The position numbers and the translations under genes are program-made. Under the pieces are notes generated by a model, which saw nothing but the letters and a program-made list of their open reading frames with translations, was not told the origin of the DNA and made no database searches. From NCBI GenBank assembly GCA_910575105.1, contig CAJTDK010000023.1, positions 1-54,648 on the forward strand: a DNA stretch of 54,648 bases, given 5' to 3'. Positions 4,203-50,148 of the stretch are shown one piece after another; position 1 is the stretch's first letter; each line of letters starts with the position of its first letter. The DNA is from Lachnospiraceae bacterium. Lineage in GTDB: Bacteria; Bacillota; Clostridia; Lachnospirales; Lachnospiraceae.

Positions 4203-4335
4203 ATTCCTCCCCCGTGATCTCCTGGTAGTCGGCTTCGGTGATGGTTCCCTTCTCCGCCCTCTCCGCGATCTGCTCCTTCGTCACTCTGCCTGCTGCGTAA
4301 AGCCGCTTAAGGCTGTTTACTAAAATGTTAGCCAT
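4192..4335 (-). CDS. XkdX-family protein
   Basis: This short gene encodes 47 residues. The pattern is that of the XkdX family found at the end of tail-fibre clusters in Firmicutes phages: an N-terminal amphipathic segment LKRLYAAGRVTKEQI followed by GTITEADYQEITGEEY. The ATG at 4335 overlaps the stop codon of the upstream gene by one base and follows GGAGGG. Its role is unknown; it is a reliable positional marker of the tail/lysis boundary. Confidence 0.8.
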   Translation of the reverse strand: MANILVNSLKRLYAAGRVTKEQIAERAEKGTITEADYQEITGEEYGE

Positions 4336-4610
4336 TATAAAAGCCCTCCTTCCATGAGCTGCATGGTGTACTCGTCAATAGCTGCCGTTACTGCTTCCTC
4401 CGTCCGGATTTCCTCAATGCTTTTAAGCATCTCGTACTCGCTTACGGGGATCTCCCTGCTCTCGCAGACGTAATCGGTGTAAGCTGCTGCTTCCTCTGTC
4501 GCTGCGTGTTCCTGCTGCTGAATGTTCCGGCGCTGGATGTAAGTGTCAGGCGCCACAAGCTGCAACTCTGCCGGTCTGCTGGCGCTTCGCTCCTTTGTCC
4601 ACTGCTTCAT
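4335..4610 (-). CDS. Phage tail accessory protein preceding XkdX
   Basis: This 91-residue protein has a pattern I associate with the gene just upstream of XkdX in many Firmicutes phages: DTYIQRRNIQ near residue 23, CESREIPVSEYEMLKSIEEI in the middle and a C-terminal IDEYTMQLMEGG. The function is not known; it may attach to tail fibres. It overlaps the 3' end of the reverse transcriptase gene by about 65 nt in another frame, so the retroelement sits within the tail operon. Confidence 0.7.
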   Translation of the reverse strand: MKQWTKERSASRPAELQLVAPDTYIQRRNIQQQEHAATEEAAAYTDYVCESREIPVSEYEMLKSIEEIRTEEAVTAAIDEYTMQLMEGGLL

Positions 4611-5778
4611 TTTTGTTTGCCCTCCTTGTCAATTTTGAAATAATTTTCTTAAGCCGTCTTACGTTTATATGCGGCTTAATATAGTCCTGGTATGCGTCGT
4701 ATGTGTCCGTACAACTGAACCACCCTATATAGCTTAACATTGCCTCTAAGTGCTTCTTAAAATATCCCCTCCCGGCCTCCTTCGCCCTGGCCAGCTTCTT
4801 TGCCAGCCTGGTAGCTGAAAGCATAATAGCCTTCCGCATGGTCGTCCGGTTGCGGAAGAAAAGAAAGCCCATGAAGTCAATTACGCGCCCTATGACCTTC
4901 CCGTTCTTTTTCTGAAAGTTGAACTTGAAAACCTGGTAATTTTTCTTTAGCTTCAAGCGGAACCGGCGCCCTATAAACTGCCTTGTCTCAGCTATGGCCT
5001 TGTGCAATTTCTTCTTGTTGTCGTCGCCCATGACTATGTCGTCCATGTAGCGTATAAGGTTTTTAATTCCTAATTTTTCCGTTATGAAACGGTCTAAAGG
5101 CTCCAACAAATAATTAGCCAGCCATTGTGAAATATAAAAGCCCAGGGGTATTCCCTTCTTAAAGCCTTGTAAGCAAAGCTCAACTATGTAAAGAAAAAGC
5201 TCGTCCTTTATTCTTATGCGAAGCTCCCGCATAAGAATGTCCAGCCGTATGCTGTCGTAAAAGTGGCGGATGTCTATCTTTGCAAAGTTCCGTATATTCT
5301 TTCCTTTGCGTATGATTTTTAAAAGTGCTTTCTTTCCGTAATGGGCGCCCCGCTTCGGGAAGCTGCCGCAGGAATATGGGTAAGCCGTGGCCGTTATAAT
5401 CGGCTCCAAAATAAGGACTATTATGTGGTGTAGCCACTGCTCGTGTATCTCCGGCATAAAAATCTTCCGGAGCTTCCCCTTCTCTTTTATAAGTTTCGGA
5501 GTTCGTCTTTTCGGTCTGTATGCCAGCTTCGGGTGTTCGACGGGAACGTCCGGCGGCTTCGTGTTTTCTATCATCCGCCGCATGGCGGTTACTTCGTTAT
5601 CAAGATCGGCGTCAATCTGTTGTATCTCTTTTCGCTTCGTTTTGCCCTTCCGCAGCTTCTTATATGCCTTCCGTATAATGTTTTCGTCAAGCATTTTGCG
5701 ATACAAATATTTATATTGTTTTACGCCTCTTTTCTCCGTGGCTTCCGTTGCTTTTAGCCACAGCTCTTTCCTCCGCAT
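4546..5778 (-). CDS. Reverse transcriptase of a diversity-generating retroelement
   Basis: This 410-residue enzyme copies the template RNA into cDNA with errors at adenines. The motifs are in order: KIDIRHFYDSI (first catalytic Asp, ~168), GIPLGFYISQW (~209-219) and RYMDD (~244-247, catalytic Asp pair). The Gln after Ser in the second motif is characteristic of DGR and not of group II intron or retron enzymes. The ATG at 5778 follows TAGGAG. Residues 1-80 are a basic helical extension. No Avd accessory gene is seen next to it. The template repeat and the target gene lie directly upstream on the same strand. Confidence 0.93.
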   Translation of the reverse strand: MRRKELWLKATEATEKRGVKQYKYLYRKMLDENIIRKAYKKLRKGKTKRKEIQQIDADLDNEVTAMRRMIENTKPPDVPVEHPKLAYRPKRRTPKLIKEKGKLRKIFMPEIHEQWLHHIIVLILEPIITATAYPYSCGSFPKRGAHYGKKALLKIIRKGKNIRNFAKIDIRHFYDSIRLDILMRELRIRIKDELFLYIVELCLQGFKKGIPLGFYISQWLANYLLEPLDRFITEKLGIKNLIRYMDDIVMGDDNKKKLHKAIAETRQFIGRRFRLKLKKNYQVFKFNFQKKNGKVIGRVIDFMGFLFFRNRTTMRKAIMLSATRLAKKLARAKEAGRGYFKKHLEAMLSYIGWFSCTDTYDAYQDYIKPHINVRRLKKIISKLTRRANKNEAVDKGAKRQQTGRVAACGA

Positions 5779-5971
5779 AAACAATACTCCTATAAGAATA
5801 TTTTTTCTTCTATCCTCTACGCACGGCAGGTGCGACCGCTTTACCGTGCGCCCTGTATCAAGTTAATTTACCACTTACCCTTCCAATTATGGCGGTTAAG
5901 GCGTATTTCAACGCCCAGGGGTGTAGGAATAGGGACGGCTTTAAGTTAATGCTCCGTATGAATAGAATAAA

Positions 5972-6073
5972 GGCGGCGCCGATGTTCCAGTTCGCATTCC
6001 CGGCTGTGTTGTTCCAATTCCGCGCCCGTGGGCCGCAGGTGAGGCCATTGTTGCAATTCCCGAACCGTAGGCA
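5972..6073 (-). repeat. DGR template repeat (TR)
   Basis: This 102-bp segment aligns without gaps to 6220-6321. On the coding (minus) strand it is rich in AAC/AAT codons: in the frame of the target it would read N-C-N-N-G and later R-N-W-N-N. All 15 differences from the variable repeat are at template A positions; none of the other 78 positions differ. Homology stops sharply at 6073. The gene-free stretch 5779-6183 holds this repeat, a GCACGG/CCGTGC hairpin (5821-5849) and the hairpin at 6152-6178. Confidence 0.95.
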
Positions 6074-6151
6074 AACGCCCCCAGGTGACGCCGTCCCTAT
6101 CCCCTTATATTTTGTTTTTATATTTTACGCTGCTTCAAAGCTCCGGTATCT

Positions 6152-6178
6152 CCTGGGGGAGTGCTTCGCGCCCCCAGG
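6152..6178. other. GC-rich hairpin between target gene and template repeat
   Basis: CCTGGGGG (6152-6159) pairs perfectly with CCCCCAGG (6171-6178) around an 11-nt loop. It lies just after the target stop codon, about 42 bp beyond the end of the variable repeat. In the Bordetella phage DGR a hairpin just past the variable repeat promotes homing; this one may do the same but is farther away. No T run follows, so a terminator is less likely. Confidence 0.5.
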
Positions 6179-6183
6179 CCCCC

Positions 6184-7473
6184 CTATACGGCTACGCCGA
6201 CAGGTGGTAAAAGAAGATCGGCGGCGCCGACGGTCCAGTCCGCAGCCCCGGCCGTGTCGTTCCAATCCCGCGCCCGGGGGCCGCAGGTGAGGCCACTGCC
6301 GCAACGCCCGAACCGCAGGCACGCGCCCGTAAACGTCTGCTTCGGGTCTTTTCTCCATAAGCCGTCGCAGCCTCCGGTCGCGCTGCTCCCTCCGTCCATT
6401 CCTAAAGCCGGGATACTGCCGTACCCCGGCACGGTTCTGAAATGGGCCGGGTAATCCAGGGCGTTGTGGTTACTGTCCCAGGTCTTGTTATCCGGTACGG
6501 CGATCCCGCTGTCCGTATACTTTGCCCCGGTCGGGTCGTAGGTGTAGTTTTTGCTTACCTTCACCCGCCCGTTTACAACTACCTCGTAAGGGTCGCGCAT
6601 CCACTGCTGGTAGCTGCCGATCACAATGCTATGGAAAATCTTGTTAAGGCTGTGCTGATCGTCGGTTCCGTAGAACTGGCCGCCGCCTACTACGGCATTC
6701 CGCTTTACTCCGTAGGTCGGGGCCTGGCTGGCGTCGTATCCTGCACAATTTCCGTACCCATAGGCTTCCTGCAGGTTCGTGGTCTTTGCGAACATAATAA
6801 GAAGGTCGGTAATGGTTTCTACAATCGGCCCGCCGTAGAACACCGCCCGGTTGCTGAAATTTATAATAGCTGCCTTTTCTTTATCCGTGGTATTGTTATA
6901 TGTGGGTTGTAAGTTCGCAAGGCTTACCATCTTCGGGCTGCTGCTGTCTGCTCCCAAAATGGAACCGTAGAACATGGGCAGCCATACGCCCTCCAGCTCC
7001 TGGTTGTTTAGGTCAATAAAACCCACCGGCTCGTAGCCGTCGCGGGCGGTAAGGGAAAAGCGCACGATCCGGTCGTTGCCGACCATTTCCTCGTTTTTAT
7101 AAATCTTCATAAGCCAGGAAAAGGCGCCGCCGTTGTAGCTGCTGTTTGCAACGTCGGAAGCTCCGCCGTCCTCGCGCTGGGTATAGTCTGTTTCCTTCAG
7201 TCTGTAATCCGGCGTACCGTCCGCCCGTACCATGTAAGGCTTATTCGCCTTAATGACCGGGAAGTCCGCCCAACTGTTCAAGGCCATTCCGCCGCTCTGC
7301 TTATTCCTTACCAGGGGCGTAAAATTCTTATTAAGCCCGATATACTCGATCCGGCTGCTGGGGCTTAAAATGTCGTTGTGTTCAATGAAGCCGTAAACCG
7401 GATCGGAAGCCAAAATATTATAAACCTTGTCCAGCGTTTCCTTGTCTGCAATATAAATCTTTTCTCCTGCCAT
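6184..7473 (-). CDS. DGR-diversified tail-tip protein (C-type-lectin-like variable domain)
   Basis: This 429-residue protein is probably the receptor-binding tip of the phage tail. The last ~230 residues have the Gly/Trp/Asn-rich look of the C-type-lectin/formylglycine-enzyme fold used by DGR targets (VWLPMFYGSIL, GYGNCAGYDASQ, WNDTAG). The variable repeat covers residues ~385-418. The N-terminal part probably docks on the tail. Its start at 7473 shares a base with the end of the tail-collar fibre gene, so the two are translationally coupled. The VR shows that retrohoming has altered the gene since it last matched the TR. Confidence 0.88.
   Translation of the reverse strand: MAGEKIYIADKETLDKVYNILASDPVYGFIEHNDILSPSSRIEYIGLNKNFTPLVRNKQSGGMALNSWADFPVIKANKPYMVRADGTPDYRLKETDYTQREDGGASDVANSSYNGGAFSWLMKIYKNEEMVGNDRIVRFSLTARDGYEPVGFIDLNNQELEGVWLPMFYGSILGADSSSPKMVSLANLQPTYNNTTDKEKAAIINFSNRAVFYGGPIVETITDLLIMFAKTTNLQEAYGYGNCAGYDASQAPTYGVKRNAVVGGGQFYGTDDQHSLNKIFHSIVIGSYQQWMRDPYEVVVNGRVKVSKNYTYDPTGAKYTDSGIAVPDNKTWDSNHNALDYPAHFRTVPGYGSIPALGMDGGSSATGGCDGLWRKDPKQTFTGACLRFGRCGSGLTCGPRARDWNDTAGAADWTVGAADLLLPPVGVAV
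6220..6321 (-). repeat. DGR variable repeat (VR), residues ~385-418 of the tail protein
   Basis: This is the copy of the template repeat inside the target gene. On the coding strand, 11 template A are G and 4 are C here. Asn codons of the template have become Arg, Gly, Ser, Asp, Asp, Ala, Asp and Thr. The invariant GC-rich end TCGGCGCCGCC (6220-6230) matches the expected initiation-of-mutagenic-homing element. The target stop codon follows 12 codons later. Confidence 0.95.
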
Positions 7474-8075
7474 TACTCGTCTACCTCCTGAATATAAATC
7501 AAGCCGTTATCAATTCCCAGCTTGTACTTCTGCTTCGTGGCGTCGTCCCGGATCTTGTTGGCGTCCTCAACAAGAAGGGCCGCGCCGGTGCTGTTGATCG
7601 TTACCTCCGCGCTGTTGTTTACGGTAGCAAAATAATCCTGCGTAATCTGCGCCGGATTATATCCGTTGTAGGGCGGCATAAAGTCACCGTTGTCCCCGGC
7701 GGTCGTGGTGATGCTGTAAAGCACTTCGGTGCTGCTTGCCCCGTCCTTTACTTTGGCGTATAAGCCCATCTCGTTAATGTAATACCCGGCGTTTACGAGC
7801 GTCTGCCCCGTTACGGGGTCCTGGTTCGTAATAAGCGCCGTTACCTTCACGCTGTAATCGCTGAATATGTCAATATCCGAAAGGGGATAGCTATTCTTAA
7901 GCGATTTTAAGGCCGTGCGCTTCTGCAAGGCATCCAGCGTCTTTTCCGCTGCGGTGTAGCTTCCGTTTCCGGTGGCGATCCGGGTAAACTCTATTTTTAT
8001 TTCCCCGGCCTGCGCCCTGGTAAGAAGCCGCGCCCCCGCGTTGGTCATTACTGCGTTGTTAAATGGCTGTGGCAT
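7473..8075 (-). CDS. Tail-collar-type fibre N-terminal protein
   Basis: This 200-residue protein starts FNNAVMTNAGARLLTRAQAGEIKIEFTRIA-like, the pattern of the phage tail-collar fibre family, where the N-terminus docks on the baseplate gpI/gpJ. Residues ~95-115 (NAGYYINEMGLYAKV) match the family core. It has no long fibre shaft, so it probably works as an adaptor for the diversified tip encoded by the next, overlapping gene. It lies 11 nt downstream of the gpI-like gene. Confidence 0.82.
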   Translation of the reverse strand: MPQPFNNAVMTNAGARLLTRAQAGEIKIEFTRIATGNGSYTAAEKTLDALQKRTALKSLKNSYPLSDIDIFSDYSVKVTALITNQDPVTGQTLVNAGYYINEMGLYAKVKDGASSTEVLYSITTTAGDNGDFMPPYNGYNPAQITQDYFATVNNSAEVTINSTGAALLVEDANKIRDDATKQKYKLGIDNGLIYIQEVDE

Positions 8076-27227: not shown

Positions 27228-27783
27228 GGTTCTTCTTTGCCTTTTTCTCCCCCGGTTCCTCCGGTACGCAACCGGAAACAACAAAAGCCCGAAGCATACG
27301 CTTTACTTCGGCATTCATCTCCTTCTCTACGCGGCGGGCCTCCAACGGTTCCAGGCTGTCGCTGATCATGCTTACAAGCCGGGAAGGAATACTTAACGCG
27401 AAGCGCTTAAACGTAACAAAAAATTTCTGGTAATCCAGCGCCACTTCCTCAACGTCAACATATTTCCCGGCGGCGATCTCCGCCCTCATGCGGTGCATCT
27501 CTCCCTGGCTTTCCTTCAAGGCGATTTCCGCCTCCAGCTTCTGCTGCCTTAACTCCGTTTCCTTTTCGGATTTCCCCTTGCCGTATGCCTTATCGCTCAA
27601 ATATTGAATGTACGTTTTAATGGTCGGCACCAGCTCGTAACGCCTGCCCTCTCCGGGGATCTCCGTAGTCTTAACTACGCCCTCCTGGGTAAGCTGCTGT
27701 ACTCTCCGGACGGTAACGCCGAAAATCTGAGCTATGACCTCAACCTTTACGAACTGGCCGCCGTTGTTTTTTTCTTCCGCCAT
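27214..27783 (-). CDS. Terminase small subunit, Nu1-like
   Basis: This 189-residue protein starts at ATG 27783, sharing a base with the methyltransferase stop. Residues ~10-45 form a winged-helix DNA-recognition domain (VKVEVIAQIFGVTVRRVQQLTQEGVV). A coiled coil follows (EKETELRQQKLEAEIALKESQGEMHRM), then a dimerisation/terminase-contact region. It recognises the phage genome for packaging by the gpA-like subunit. Confidence 0.88.
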   Translation of the reverse strand: MAEEKNNGGQFVKVEVIAQIFGVTVRRVQQLTQEGVVKTTEIPGEGRRYELVPTIKTYIQYLSDKAYGKGKSEKETELRQQKLEAEIALKESQGEMHRMRAEIAAGKYVDVEEVALDYQKFFVTFKRFALSIPSRLVSMISDSLEPLEARRVEKEMNAEVKRMLRAFVVSGCVPEEPGEKKAKKNRAEA

Positions 27784-29129
27784 TACTCTCCGCCCTCCCT
27801 TACTCTTACGGCTTTCTGGCCGGTGTATTCCTCCCAACGGTCTAAAATAATATCGCAGTACTTTTCGTTGATCTCCATAAGGTACGCGCTGCGGTTTAGC
27901 TGCTCGCAAGCGATCAGCGTCGTCCCGCTGCCTCCGAAGAAGTCAGCTACGCTGTCCCCGTACTTGCTGCTGTTGGAAATTAGCCGCCCGAAAAGGGATA
28001 CGGGCTTCATTGTCGGGTGCTTATCGCTGCGGGCTGGTTTCTTCTCGTATAAGACCGTTGTGTCCTGCTGCAGCTTCTCCCGGATGCCCTCAATGTATGC
28101 CACAAGCTCCGCTTTCTTCATGGCTGTAAAGTCTATGTCGTCCTCAATGAAAACGGTATCTTGCCCGCGTCCGCCTCCGAAGTAATGACCGGCGCCTTCC
28201 TTCCAACCGTAAAGAATAGGCTCATGCCGCCAGTGGTAATCCTGGCGGCCTATAACAAACTGGTTTTTCTCCCATATAAGCGTCTGCGCCTGGTAAAAGC
28301 CCGCCTCCCTCATGGCGGTTCGGAAGTTTATACCCTCGCTGTCGGCGTGGAAAATGTAAACCGAACAGCCGGGCCGCGCTGCTTCGTTGAAATTACAAAA
28401 CGCCTTGTACAGAAAACTGTAAAAGGCGTTATCGCTCATCTTGTCGTTTTGGATTTCATTGCTGGTCCTGGTTTTATTCCGTTTATAGGAACGCTCCAGG
28501 CTCTTGTCTTTGGTTTCGTAATCTACGTTATAGGGCGGGTCGGTGATGATAAGGTCCGCCGCTGCGCCCTCCATAAGCCGCTCAACGTCGGAAAGGTCCG
28601 TAGCGTCGCCGCACATCAGCCGGTGGCTGCCTAACTGCCAAATATCGCCGGGGCGCGTCCGTATCTCCGTAAGCTCCTTCAGCTTCTCGTCCGGGTCGTA
28701 GCCGTCGTCGTTTGCCTCCTGGGTAAGCTCAACGGCTGCAAAGAGCTTTTCGATCTCGTCGCCGTCGAAGCCGGTAAGGTTCACGTTATAGTCTGCCTTA
28801 TCTAAATCAATCAATAAATCTTTTAAGGCTGCCTCGTCCCATTCGCCGGTTATTTTGTTCAAGGCAATATTAAGCGCCTTTTCCCTGGTCTTGTCCATCT
28901 CAACAAGAATACAGTCCGCCTCCGTATAGCCTAAATCAAGCATAACCGTGCGGCGCTGGTGGCCGCCTATGATGGTATTGTCTGAATTTATAATAATCGG
29001 GTCAACGTACCCAAATTCTTCTATGCTGGCGGCTATGCGCTGGTATTCCGGATCGCTGGGTATCAGCGCTTTACGCGGATTATACTCCGCCGGTTTAAGG
29101 TCTGAAAGGTTCCGTTTTATCAGCTCCAT
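27783..29129 (-). CDS. ParB-domain/DNA adenine (or N4-cytosine) methyltransferase fusion
   Basis: This 448-residue protein has a ParB/Srx-like N-terminal domain (YNPRKAL … IIGGHQRRTVMLDLGY, residues ~1-130). A beta-class methyltransferase follows, with the catalytic motif DPPY (TDPPYNVDYETKD) first and the cofactor motif DFFGGSGTT near the end. Phages use such enzymes to protect DNA or alter regulation. The ATG at 29129 follows GGAAGGAGGG; the upstream in-frame codons are not needed. No restriction gene is adjacent. It heads the late operon, directly before terminase. Confidence 0.92.
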   Translation of the reverse strand: MELIKRNLSDLKPAEYNPRKALIPSDPEYQRIAASIEEFGYVDPIIINSDNTIIGGHQRRTVMLDLGYTEADCILVEMDKTREKALNIALNKITGEWDEAALKDLLIDLDKADYNVNLTGFDGDEIEKLFAAVELTQEANDDGYDPDEKLKELTEIRTRPGDIWQLGSHRLMCGDATDLSDVERLMEGAAADLIITDPPYNVDYETKDKSLERSYKRNKTRTSNEIQNDKMSDNAFYSFLYKAFCNFNEAARPGCSVYIFHADSEGINFRTAMREAGFYQAQTLIWEKNQFVIGRQDYHWRHEPILYGWKEGAGHYFGGGRGQDTVFIEDDIDFTAMKKAELVAYIEGIREKLQQDTTVLYEKKPARSDKHPTMKPVSLFGRLISNSSKYGDSVADFFGGSGTTLIACEQLNRSAYLMEINEKYCDIILDRWEEYTGQKAVRVREGGE

Positions 29130-29827
29130 GGTTCCGTTTTCCCTCCTTCCTATGCTTCGCGTAACGAAAAGCAAAATTTTTTTTCGATTTCAGCGCCGAA
29201 AATACTGCGCCTTCCCCGCCCCGCATGGCTTTTTAGGTCTTGGAAGTACCTTTTAATTTTTGTGCGGGTATACCTCCGCGCTGCGCTGTTCGCCTGGCTG
29301 CCTTGCGTCCTGGCTCTTTGCTTACGCTGTGCGCTGTGTGCCGTGGCTGCCCTTGCCTCCCTTGCCTCAATGCCTGCGCCGTGCTGTGCCTGCGTCGCCT
29401 GCCTTGTGTCATGCTCCTATGTATGCCTTGCCCCTTCTCTTGTGCCTGGCCTGCTGTGTCCTCTCTGTATGCTATGCTGCTATGCCTTGCTCTGTATGTA
29501 TAATAATAGACGTACTTTATACCCTGCTATTATGGGGTGTGCATAAATAATGCCCCTATAATACGCCTATATAATAGGGGGTGTATAAAATAGGGGCTTA
29601 TTTCCTGGCTTATATGCGGGGGTGCTGTTCTTTATTTCCCATGCTACTATAATAGCACACTTAAAAGTCCAATAGAGTCCGAACTTTAAAAAAGCCGCCG
29701 AAGCCTTGTATATACTGGCTTTCCTGCGCTTCCCCTGGGTGTAAAAATGCCCCGTAAAAATTCCCCTTGTAAAAAATGCGGGAAAAAATACGGGGTATTA
29801 TATGAGGGTATCATAGGGGGGCTATAT
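29130..29827. other. Gene-free 700-bp stretch ahead of the packaging genes
   Basis: No gene is convincing here. From about 29280 to 29500 the sequence is low-complexity, with GCCT/CTGC words on the plus strand, and open in all plus frames but with no ribosome site. From 29525 to 29600 it holds two similar blocks, TATTATGGGGTGTGCATAA and TAATAGGGGGTGTATAAA, and the inverted pair CCCCTAT/ATAGGGG. The place (before terminase, after the late regulator) suits a late promoter and the packaging (cos) site. Confidence 0.5.
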
Positions 29828-48492: not shown

Positions 48493-48545
48493 AAAGGAAC
48501 CCCGCTCCCAGCCATTGGCGTGGCTTACGGGGACGGGGCGGCTTG

Positions 48546-48598
48546 TTGGCCATGTTATAAACATTCCGAGCAAATGTATTATAGCATGGTCCGGCCAA
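48546..48598. promoter_or_regulatory. Imperfect inverted repeat upstream of integrase
   Basis: TTGGCCATGTTATAAACATT (48546-48565) is inverted, with small gaps, at 48573-48598 (AATGT … TATAGCATGG … GGCCAA). A C/G-rich hairpin (CCCCG … CGGGG) lies just before, at ~48501-48540. The site may control integrase expression. Confidence 0.45.
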
Positions 48599-48654
48599 AA
48601 ACACAAGTACAAGGCGGGGCTATTTTTGCGCCCGTTTTTAAGGAGGTCTATGCT

Positions 48655-50148
48655 ATGAAACAAAAAGAATTAAACCATACTCCGGCGGCTTTCTCTCTGG
48701 ATAACGTCGCCGACCTGTATATCCGCGTGTCGACTACGGAGCAGGCCGAGGAAGGTTATAGCGTCGGGGAACAAGAGGCCCGGCTCCGCTCCTACTGCTC
48801 CGCTATGGGCTTTACTGTAAACGCGGTCCATATAGATCCGGGGTACTCCGGGGCTACGCTGGACCGGCCTGGTATCAATAAAGTTATAAAGGATGTCCGG
48901 GCCGGTTATGTGAAAAAGGTTATCGTCTGGAAGCTGGACCGGCTTTCCCGCTCTCAAAAAGACGTTCTTGTCCTGCTGGAGGATGTCTTTTTAGAAAATG
49001 GCTGTAACTTCGTTTCCCTTATGGAAAGTTTCGATACGGCTACGCCCTTCGGGCGGTGTATGGTCGGTATACTGGCGGCCTTCGCTCAAATGGAACGGGA
49101 AAATATAAAGCTCCGCACAATGATGGGGAAGCAAGCCGGGCTTAAGGAAGGCCGTTACTTCTCCGGACGCGCTCCTATCGGGTATCAATACCAAATGCAA
49201 CCAAACGGCAAACTTGCCCTTATTGTCGATCCGTATGCCTCTAAAGCTGTCCGGGATATGTTCCGGCTTTATGCCTCCGGGAAAAGCGAGAGCGCGGTCG
49301 CTGGGTATATACAAGAAAATTACGGGCTATTCCCTGGGCTTGACCGCCACTCCGCCGTCGGGCGGATAAGCCGTATTATGCGTAATCCGGTTTATATGGG
49401 AAAAGTAAGAATGAAAGAAGAATGTTACGAAGGGCGGCACGATCCCCTGGTGGCTCCCGATCTATGGCAATCTGTCAATGATCGCTTAAGCCAAAACCTG
49501 CAGGCGTTCAAACGCTCCTACGGCGAGTCAGACGGGCTGCTCTGCGGCCTTCTGTTCTGCGGGGACTGCGGCGCCCGGATGGCGATCCGCTCCTGGAAGA
49601 AAAAAAGCGGGGAAAAAGTCAAGAAATATATGTGTTATTCCGTAAGCCGCGCTACTCCGGCTATGATCCGCTCTGAAAACTGTAGCAACCGTAAAAAGCA
49701 TCTTACCCTGGCGGAACTTGACGCCCTGGTGCTGGAAGAAATTAAAAAGCTCGCCCTTGATCCGGCTGCCCTCGATCCTCTTATCGAAGAAAGCGCCGAA
49801 GAAGCCGCGCCCGACCTTCCGGTGTTCCAGGAGCGTATGGCAAATGTGGAAAAGCAACTTACGCGCCTTCTTAATCTGTATCAATCCGGAGTCATGGAAC
49901 TGGAAGAAATACAAGGCCGCCTTGCTGCTCTTAAGGAAGAACGGGAAGCGGTTCAGAAACGGCTGGACGAAGCCGAAAAGGCAAATACCGGGAAGCTGTC
50001 AAAAGAGGCAGCTATAGCCTCCCTCGCAAGCCTGGGGGCTGTTATAGAAAGCGGGGACAACGCTGCGCTTTATGACCTGGTGCATACCCTTATAGAAAAG
50101 GTCGTGTACCTCAACGGGGATATAACTATATACTGGGCTTTCTGCTGA
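48655..50148 (+). CDS. Large serine recombinase (phage integrase)
   Basis: This 497-residue enzyme inserts and excises the prophage. Residues ~20-160 form the resolvase catalytic domain with nucleophile Ser26 (LYIRVSTTEQ) and VIVWKLDRLSRS. The recombinase domain follows (RAPIGYQYQ), then a zinc ribbon (LFCGDCGARM … CYSV … CSNRKK) and a coiled coil (ERMANVEKQLTRLLNLY). The ATG at 48655 follows AGGAGG at 8 nt; the open frame upstream is not needed. It lies next to attR. No excisionase-like factor was recognised. Confidence 0.95.
   Translation: MKQKELNHTPAAFSLDNVADLYIRVSTTEQAEEGYSVGEQEARLRSYCSAMGFTVNAVHIDPGYSGATLDRPGINKVIKDVRAGYVKKVIVWKLDRLSRSQKDVLVLLEDVFLENGCNFVSLMESFDTATPFGRCMVGILAAFAQMERENIKLRTMMGKQAGLKEGRYFSGRAPIGYQYQMQPNGKLALIVDPYASKAVRDMFRLYASGKSESAVAGYIQENYGLFPGLDRHSAVGRISRIMRNPVYMGKVRMKEECYEGRHDPLVAPDLWQSVNDRLSQNLQAFKRSYGESDGLLCGLLFCGDCGARMAIRSWKKKSGEKVKKYMCYSVSRATPAMIRSENCSNRKKHLTLAELDALVLEEIKKLALDPAALDPLIEESAEEAAPDLPVFQERMANVEKQLTRLLNLYQSGVMELEEIQGRLAALKEEREAVQKRLDEAEKANTGKLSKEAAIASLASLGAVIESGDNAALYDLVHTLIEKVVYLNGDITIYWAFC

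Follow-up and report, generated by a model that had tools for sequence, protein, structure and literature searches.

Roux et al. described more than 30,000 diversity-generating retroelements (DGRs), with which phage lineages seemingly diversify their host attachment proteins (PMC8144416). In the DGR of Bordetella phage BPP-1 (AY029185), the target gene with its variable repeat (VR), the template repeat (TR), a structured spacer RNA and the reverse transcriptase (RT) stand in this order, the VR lies at the 3′ end of a tail gene, and a hairpin behind the VR is needed for efficient homing (PMC3240598); the spacer folds and recruits a complex of the RT with the accessory protein Avd, which BPP-1 requires (PMC12875486). 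In phage FP_Epona (MG711462; PMC5883640), whose host is Faecalibacterium prausnitzii, the gene order is baseplate J, tail P2-I, tail-collar fibre, target, RT, small protein and XkdX, and the target is annotated as a BPP-1-like major tropism determinant (Mtd). Here we analyze a related element on the minus strand of a 54,648-nucleotide stretch of Lachnospiraceae DNA (GCA_910575105.1, contig CAJTDK010000023.1; hereafter the window), which is the entire contig C23 of a 4.24-Mb genome in 86 contigs. We put the probability at about 96% that this element is a working Epona-type DGR of a temperate, contractile-tailed phage, probably with a Lachnospiraceae host, and the evidence supports it well as a further example of a known DGR system.

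The window shares the FP_Epona gene order and, from target to RT, the BPP-1 order. Its TR (5972-6073, minus strand; 5972-6080 in the 109-nucleotide form seen in relatives) and its VR (6220-6321, minus strand) align without gaps over 102 positions and differ at 15 of them, all among the 24 template adenines (11 A>G, 4 A>C, no A>T) and none among the 78 other positions; the chance that 15 random differences would all hit adenines is 3.7e-12 (hypergeometric). The same A-only pattern is present in FP_Epona (13 of 26 adenines changed, no other position) and in BPP-1 (17 of 23 adenines, no other position over 119 nucleotides). The last 11 nucleotides of the VR (6220-6230) are identical to the TR and GC-rich, resembling an initiation-of-mutagenic-homing (IMH) end. 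The VR encodes part of the C-terminus of the target protein, where the 15 differences touch 12 codons and change nine residues, eight of them at template asparagines, while the other three codon changes are silent.

To ask how the VR varies among relatives, we assembled 88 sequences (69 viral loci, 18 genome loci and the window) and recovered a TR/VR pair in 75 of them; of the 13 without a pair, 11 are contigs that end at most 500 nucleotides upstream of the RT match, one (L086) is cut inside the target, and L087 fits neither case. The phage of the window also occurs in a named Lachnospiraceae genome (locus L073); over 9514 bp, the two copies differ at 20 positions. All 20 lie within 6231-6323: 18 fall on VR positions that correspond to template adenines and two at the VR edge. 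The TR is identical, as are 1395 nucleotides on the RT side. This pair is the decisive case for recent diversification between otherwise identical phages. The differences between L073 and the window are confined to the VR and its edge, and diversification therefore postdates the split of the two copies. A>T changes between TR and VR, absent from the window (0/15) and from L074 (0/11), are present in L073 (4/13) and L075 (3/15).

The pattern is general among the relatives. When the 65 distinct TR/VR pairs are pooled, the two repeats disagree at 848 of 1633 template adenines compared to 39 of 5574 other positions, so that 848 of 887 mismatches fall at template adenines (382 to G, 257 to T and 209 to C). 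The scan that recovered these pairs penalizes mismatches at other bases and thus favors an A-only pattern, and we therefore ran control scans that tolerated C, G or T instead; these gave segments in 22, 24 and 23 of the 88 sources, respectively, and in six example segments per base, which had 6 to 12 mismatches each, no more than three mismatches (0 to 3) lay at the tolerated base. An exact 28-nucleotide TR pattern had no match in viral_contigs. We also compared 15 near-identical pairs of loci chosen for an identical TR, flanks at least 99% identical on both sides and different VRs, after dropping same-sequence repeats (L039, L055, L077). In these pairs, which share genomes and so are not independent, differences occur at 219 of 379 adenine sites, compared to 16 of the 1151 remaining positions of the VR and 49 of 29586 positions in the flanks. 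The VR thus changes among close relatives while the TR stays. An earlier sequence-only reading of the window had claimed a DGR that diversified the tail tip of the prophage and had proposed comparing VRs among related prophages; that comparison supports the DGR part of the claim, since the differences between near-identical phages are almost confined to VR template-adenine positions.

The RT gene (4546-5784, minus strand) is an intact open reading frame (ORF) of 412 amino acids (aa) with matches to RVT_1 (E 2.3e-16) and phrog_1423 (E 2e-92), and its product is 62.8% identical to the RT of FP_Epona. Its best PDB sequence match is 8ub7_A (E 7.3e-15), which is the BPP-1 enzyme: two aligned stretches are letter-identical to the brt product of AY029185. 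When aligned to 8ub7, the window RT has Arg at R74 and Leu at I181, residues that we take to govern adenine errors. Motif 4 reads LGFYISQ and conforms to (I/V/L)GxxxSQ, a hallmark of DGR RTs (PMC3521204), and the catalytic motif is YMDD; the assignment as a DGR RT was made from these motifs and the best PDB match. The RT and target ORFs are as the sequence-only reading had stated. Two weak RT matches elsewhere in the same genome (G000:C43:7456-7926, 34% identity; G000:C2:51402-51986, 29% identity) lie in frames of 587 and 636 codons and are perhaps group II intron proteins.

Between the TR and the RT, 46 nucleotides from the former and 23 from the RT ORF, lies a full-length match to the Rfam family RT-4 (RF03025; 5808-5925, minus strand; 113.7 bits compared to a gathering threshold of 73.5, E 4e-20). 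RT-4 was also present in 16/16, 14/17 and 3/10 of the further sequences scanned in three sets, FP_Epona among them, and thus in all 34 scanned members with RTs at least 58% identical, the window included. It was not found in six loci with RTs ~30% identical (L060, L065, L070, L062, L071, L072), in three relatives at 38-44% (L139, L145, L146), or in BPP-1, in which the Rfam Phage_DGR RNA (RF03022) occupies 2750-2882, between TR and RT, where the window has RT-4. Because the BPP-1 RNA holds the equivalent place and the BPP-1 spacer recruits RT–Avd, RT-4 is most likely the spacer RNA of this DGR clade, and by the same analogy it may have a role in priming. The Rfam name makes no mention of DGRs, and none of the publications listed in our literature searches connects RT-4 RNA with DGRs; we do not claim that the link is unpublished. 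In two of the 38-40% relatives, the Rfam RT-18 RNA lies beside the RT (L139:251-329 and L146:1176-1248), which points to RT-18 as a further spacer RNA of DGRs.

Two inverted repeats that would form hairpins follow the VR, where BPP-1 also has a hairpin. A short one, CGGC-GTA-GCCG (6189-6199, minus strand), lies between the VR and the stop codon, at the place of a DGR target-site hairpin, and a GC-rich one (6152-6178, minus strand; 8-bp stem, 11-nucleotide loop with GCGAAGC) lies behind the target gene and is identical in L073. We followed the short hairpin through 24 distinct segments, which represent 63 of 64 clade loci (L089 is off-pattern; L060-L072 were left out). In 22 of the 24, ten distinct stems of at least 4 bp occur, so that stem sequence varies and pairing is kept, and the remaining two segments (L023/L024, L020) have only 2-bp stems in a simple count. 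The mean stem was 4.8 bp compared to 3.0 bp (maximum 3.6) in 200 mononucleotide shuffles. Stems of at least 7 bp from either hairpin (loop 3-12 nucleotides, at most 100 nucleotides behind the VR) are present in 27 of 47 distinct stretches, compared to a mean of 2.1 and a maximum of 5 in 50 mononucleotide shuffles and to 6 of 47 behind the TR.

The target gene (6184-7473, minus strand) encodes a 429-aa protein that matches phrog_5302 ('tail protein', E 1.6e-87) and belongs to a family that we aligned over 19 relatives. Directly upstream, a gene for a 200-aa protein of the tail-fibre N-terminal type (7473-8075, minus strand) matches phrog_7037 (tail fiber, E 6.2e-45) and, under the cut-off of that model, Pfam Phage_tail_fib (E 0.0017). 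Sequence searches of Pfam, NCBIfam and PDB with the target yielded nothing convincing, and hhalign gave no match to Mtd, the domains of which distinguish the BPP-1 target from that of the window. For a C-lectin fold, sequence searches gave two PDB matches (E 0.099 and 0.33) and a Pfam match in one of the 19 members (E 0.032), all of which were judged to be chance. Gene order, the phrog_5302 annotation and the BPP-1 model together suggest that the target may be a receptor-binding tip protein. The sequence-only reading had called the target the last tail gene, which is approximately right: a small tail-type gene and an XkdX-like ORF, the latter recognized by eye and matched in place by the annotated XkdX of FP_Epona, come after the RT. 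Locus L141 has a phrog_5302 tail protein with no RT in the 4.7 kb covered, and the target family therefore exists outside DGRs.

On the BPP-1 model, we infer that an RNA spanning both the TR and the RT-4 spacer behind it would be reverse transcribed by the adjacent RT, recruited by RT-4, with misreading of template adenines. The mutated complementary DNA would then take the place of the VR in the 3′-terminal part of the distal tail-protein gene, with the GC-rich 3′ end common to TR and VR as a guide and with help from the hairpins behind the VR, and because the TR would be left unchanged, the process could be repeated.

Several observations weigh against this interpretation. No Avd was found, although BPP-1 needs it, and the loops of the hairpins depart from the 4-nucleotide GRNA loop of PMC3240598. 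Among the 39 non-A mismatches of the 65 pairs, 19 are T>G, and in the near-identical pairs non-A VR sites vary more often than the flanks. Finally, the A-only pattern holds within the 102 nucleotides chosen in the sequence-only reading, but that choice omits the upstream edge of a repeat that is mostly 109 nucleotides long in near relatives, and extension by seven nucleotides adds two non-A differences, at 6322 and 6323, just outside the chosen edge. L073 has template letters at both positions, which is most simply read as a final round of conversion in the window that stopped short of them. With these points included, the DGR interpretation of the sequence-only reading holds up on the SQ-type RT, A-only TR/VR changes, a GC-rich shared 3′ end, hairpins, a spacer RNA and near-identical phages; RT-4, the hairpins and the lack of Avd are additions to that reading. 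Two direct repeats of ~100 nucleotides could also arise by ordinary duplication followed by point mutation, or their differences could reflect strong selection on the C-terminus, but neither accounts for an A-only pattern that includes three silent changes and arises by chance with P 3.7e-12, for the same pattern over 65 distinct pairs, or for the outcome of the control scans that tolerate another base; the base pattern refutes this explanation, to which we assign practically no weight. It is more conceivable, and still quite improbable, that the VR was diversified earlier and that the element has since become inactive in this strain. A single genome is a snapshot, and of the Faecalibacterium DGRs examined in PMC11792537, not all showed activity at the level of reads. 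Against decay stand the intact RT ORF with its YMDD and SQ motifs and the restriction of all L073 differences over 9514 bp to the VR and its edge.

An Avd gene is a frequent but not a defining accessory of DGRs. In BPP-1 it lies between target and TR; models PF05635 and PF22296 found no Avd match in the window's genome, and PF22296 found none in 15 viral records or in the whole FP_Epona record, which thus resembles the window in combining RT-4 with the lack of a bAvd match and differs in its host and in sequence divergence. Fourteen control genomes had no Avd match either, and in the BPP-1 record, added as a positive control, Avd was found. A DGR free of accessory genes has been described (PMC4159848), and in PMC5883640 Avd was detected among Faecalibacterium phages only in Mushu and Lagaffe, so that an Epona-type DGR lacking Avd has already been published. 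In 11 host genomes of relatives, PF22296 matched in six (G017, G020, G271, G272, G273 and G274, the G271 match being below cut-off) at ten places, and did not match in the genome of L073 (G016). All nine of the places examined (the weak G020:C7 was left out) are on other contigs than the prophage and have, within ~1 kb, an RT nearer to that of BPP-1 (L156-L164); the Avd model therefore does detect Avd beside its RT in these hosts. These places are separate, Avd-bearing DGRs, and in such hosts Avd may be supplied in trans. A more tentative possibility, which we consider doubtful, is that the clade is Avd-independent and that RT-4, alone or with the longer ends of the RT or with a small protein encoded behind it, replaces Avd.

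That 91-aa protein (4335-4610, minus strand; phrog_20201), whose gene overlaps the 3′ end of the RT gene, is possibly a DGR partner; its gene probably belongs to the tail module and has the DGR as its neighbour. We regard it as unlikely that it is a dedicated DGR accessory in place of Avd and not a tail gene. For such a role speak the proposal of another small protein for Avd-free phage DGRs (PMC5883640), the presence of an RT in 47 of the 48 viral stretches found with the protein's own profile (the remaining one being cut 62 nucleotides upstream), its place directly behind an RT in each of the three of 250 host-family genomes that contain it, and its retention in L057, whose remaining tail genes lie outside shared clusters. 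However, three family genomes with RTs 36-42% identical have no match to it, it is acidic (isoelectric point 4.5) compared to the basic BPP-1 Avd (9.6), and its position is the usual place of small tail genes. In L141, moreover, a weakly matching relative (E 2.1e-4 when 15 loci were searched, too weak for the genome-wide search with its reporting limit of E 0.001) lies directly behind the RT-less phrog_5302 tail gene, followed by short XkdX-looking ORFs. The tail-gene explanation accounts only partly for the near-exclusive link of the 91-aa gene with the RT. A 130-aa protein at the equivalent place in L060/L062 had no convincing profile match, and L151 has a look-alike of the 91-aa protein, by eye only.

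The remaining minus-strand matches in the window are those of a phage: terminase, portal, head protease and head protein, followed by tail sheath, tape measure, baseplate J and Tail_P2_I, and then by the fibre-type protein, target, RT, 91-aa protein, a holin-type gene and endolysin. An integrase gene (48520-50148; phrog_95) lies on the plus strand. From these genes, we take the phage to be temperate and contractile-tailed. Among named genomes, its closest relatives are in Lachnospiraceae, probably also the host of this phage, and a mouse-gut origin of these relatives is read from strain and catalogue names. A DNA methyltransferase gene with a ParB-like part (27783-29174) adjoins the terminase gene. 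Strain 1XD21-72 carries two DGRs of the window type on two contigs (L084, L085), with differing TRs and VRs. Near-identical DGR regions with different VRs (L007/L077, L055/L076, L078, L084) occur in genomes under different names (Acetatifactor muris, 1XD8-76, C64_1, 1XD21-72), and several hosts thus seem to share a single phage.

Thus, two phage copies that are identical over 9.5 kb except for the VR and its edge provide a clean natural record of DGR activity. Named isolates, Acetatifactor muris DSM 23669 (locus L076) among them, carry members of the clade, which lacks a recognizable Avd and has RT-4, and the need for Avd is therefore testable. If the clade is Avd-independent, RT-4 would represent a family of DGR template RNAs that works with an RT of its own.

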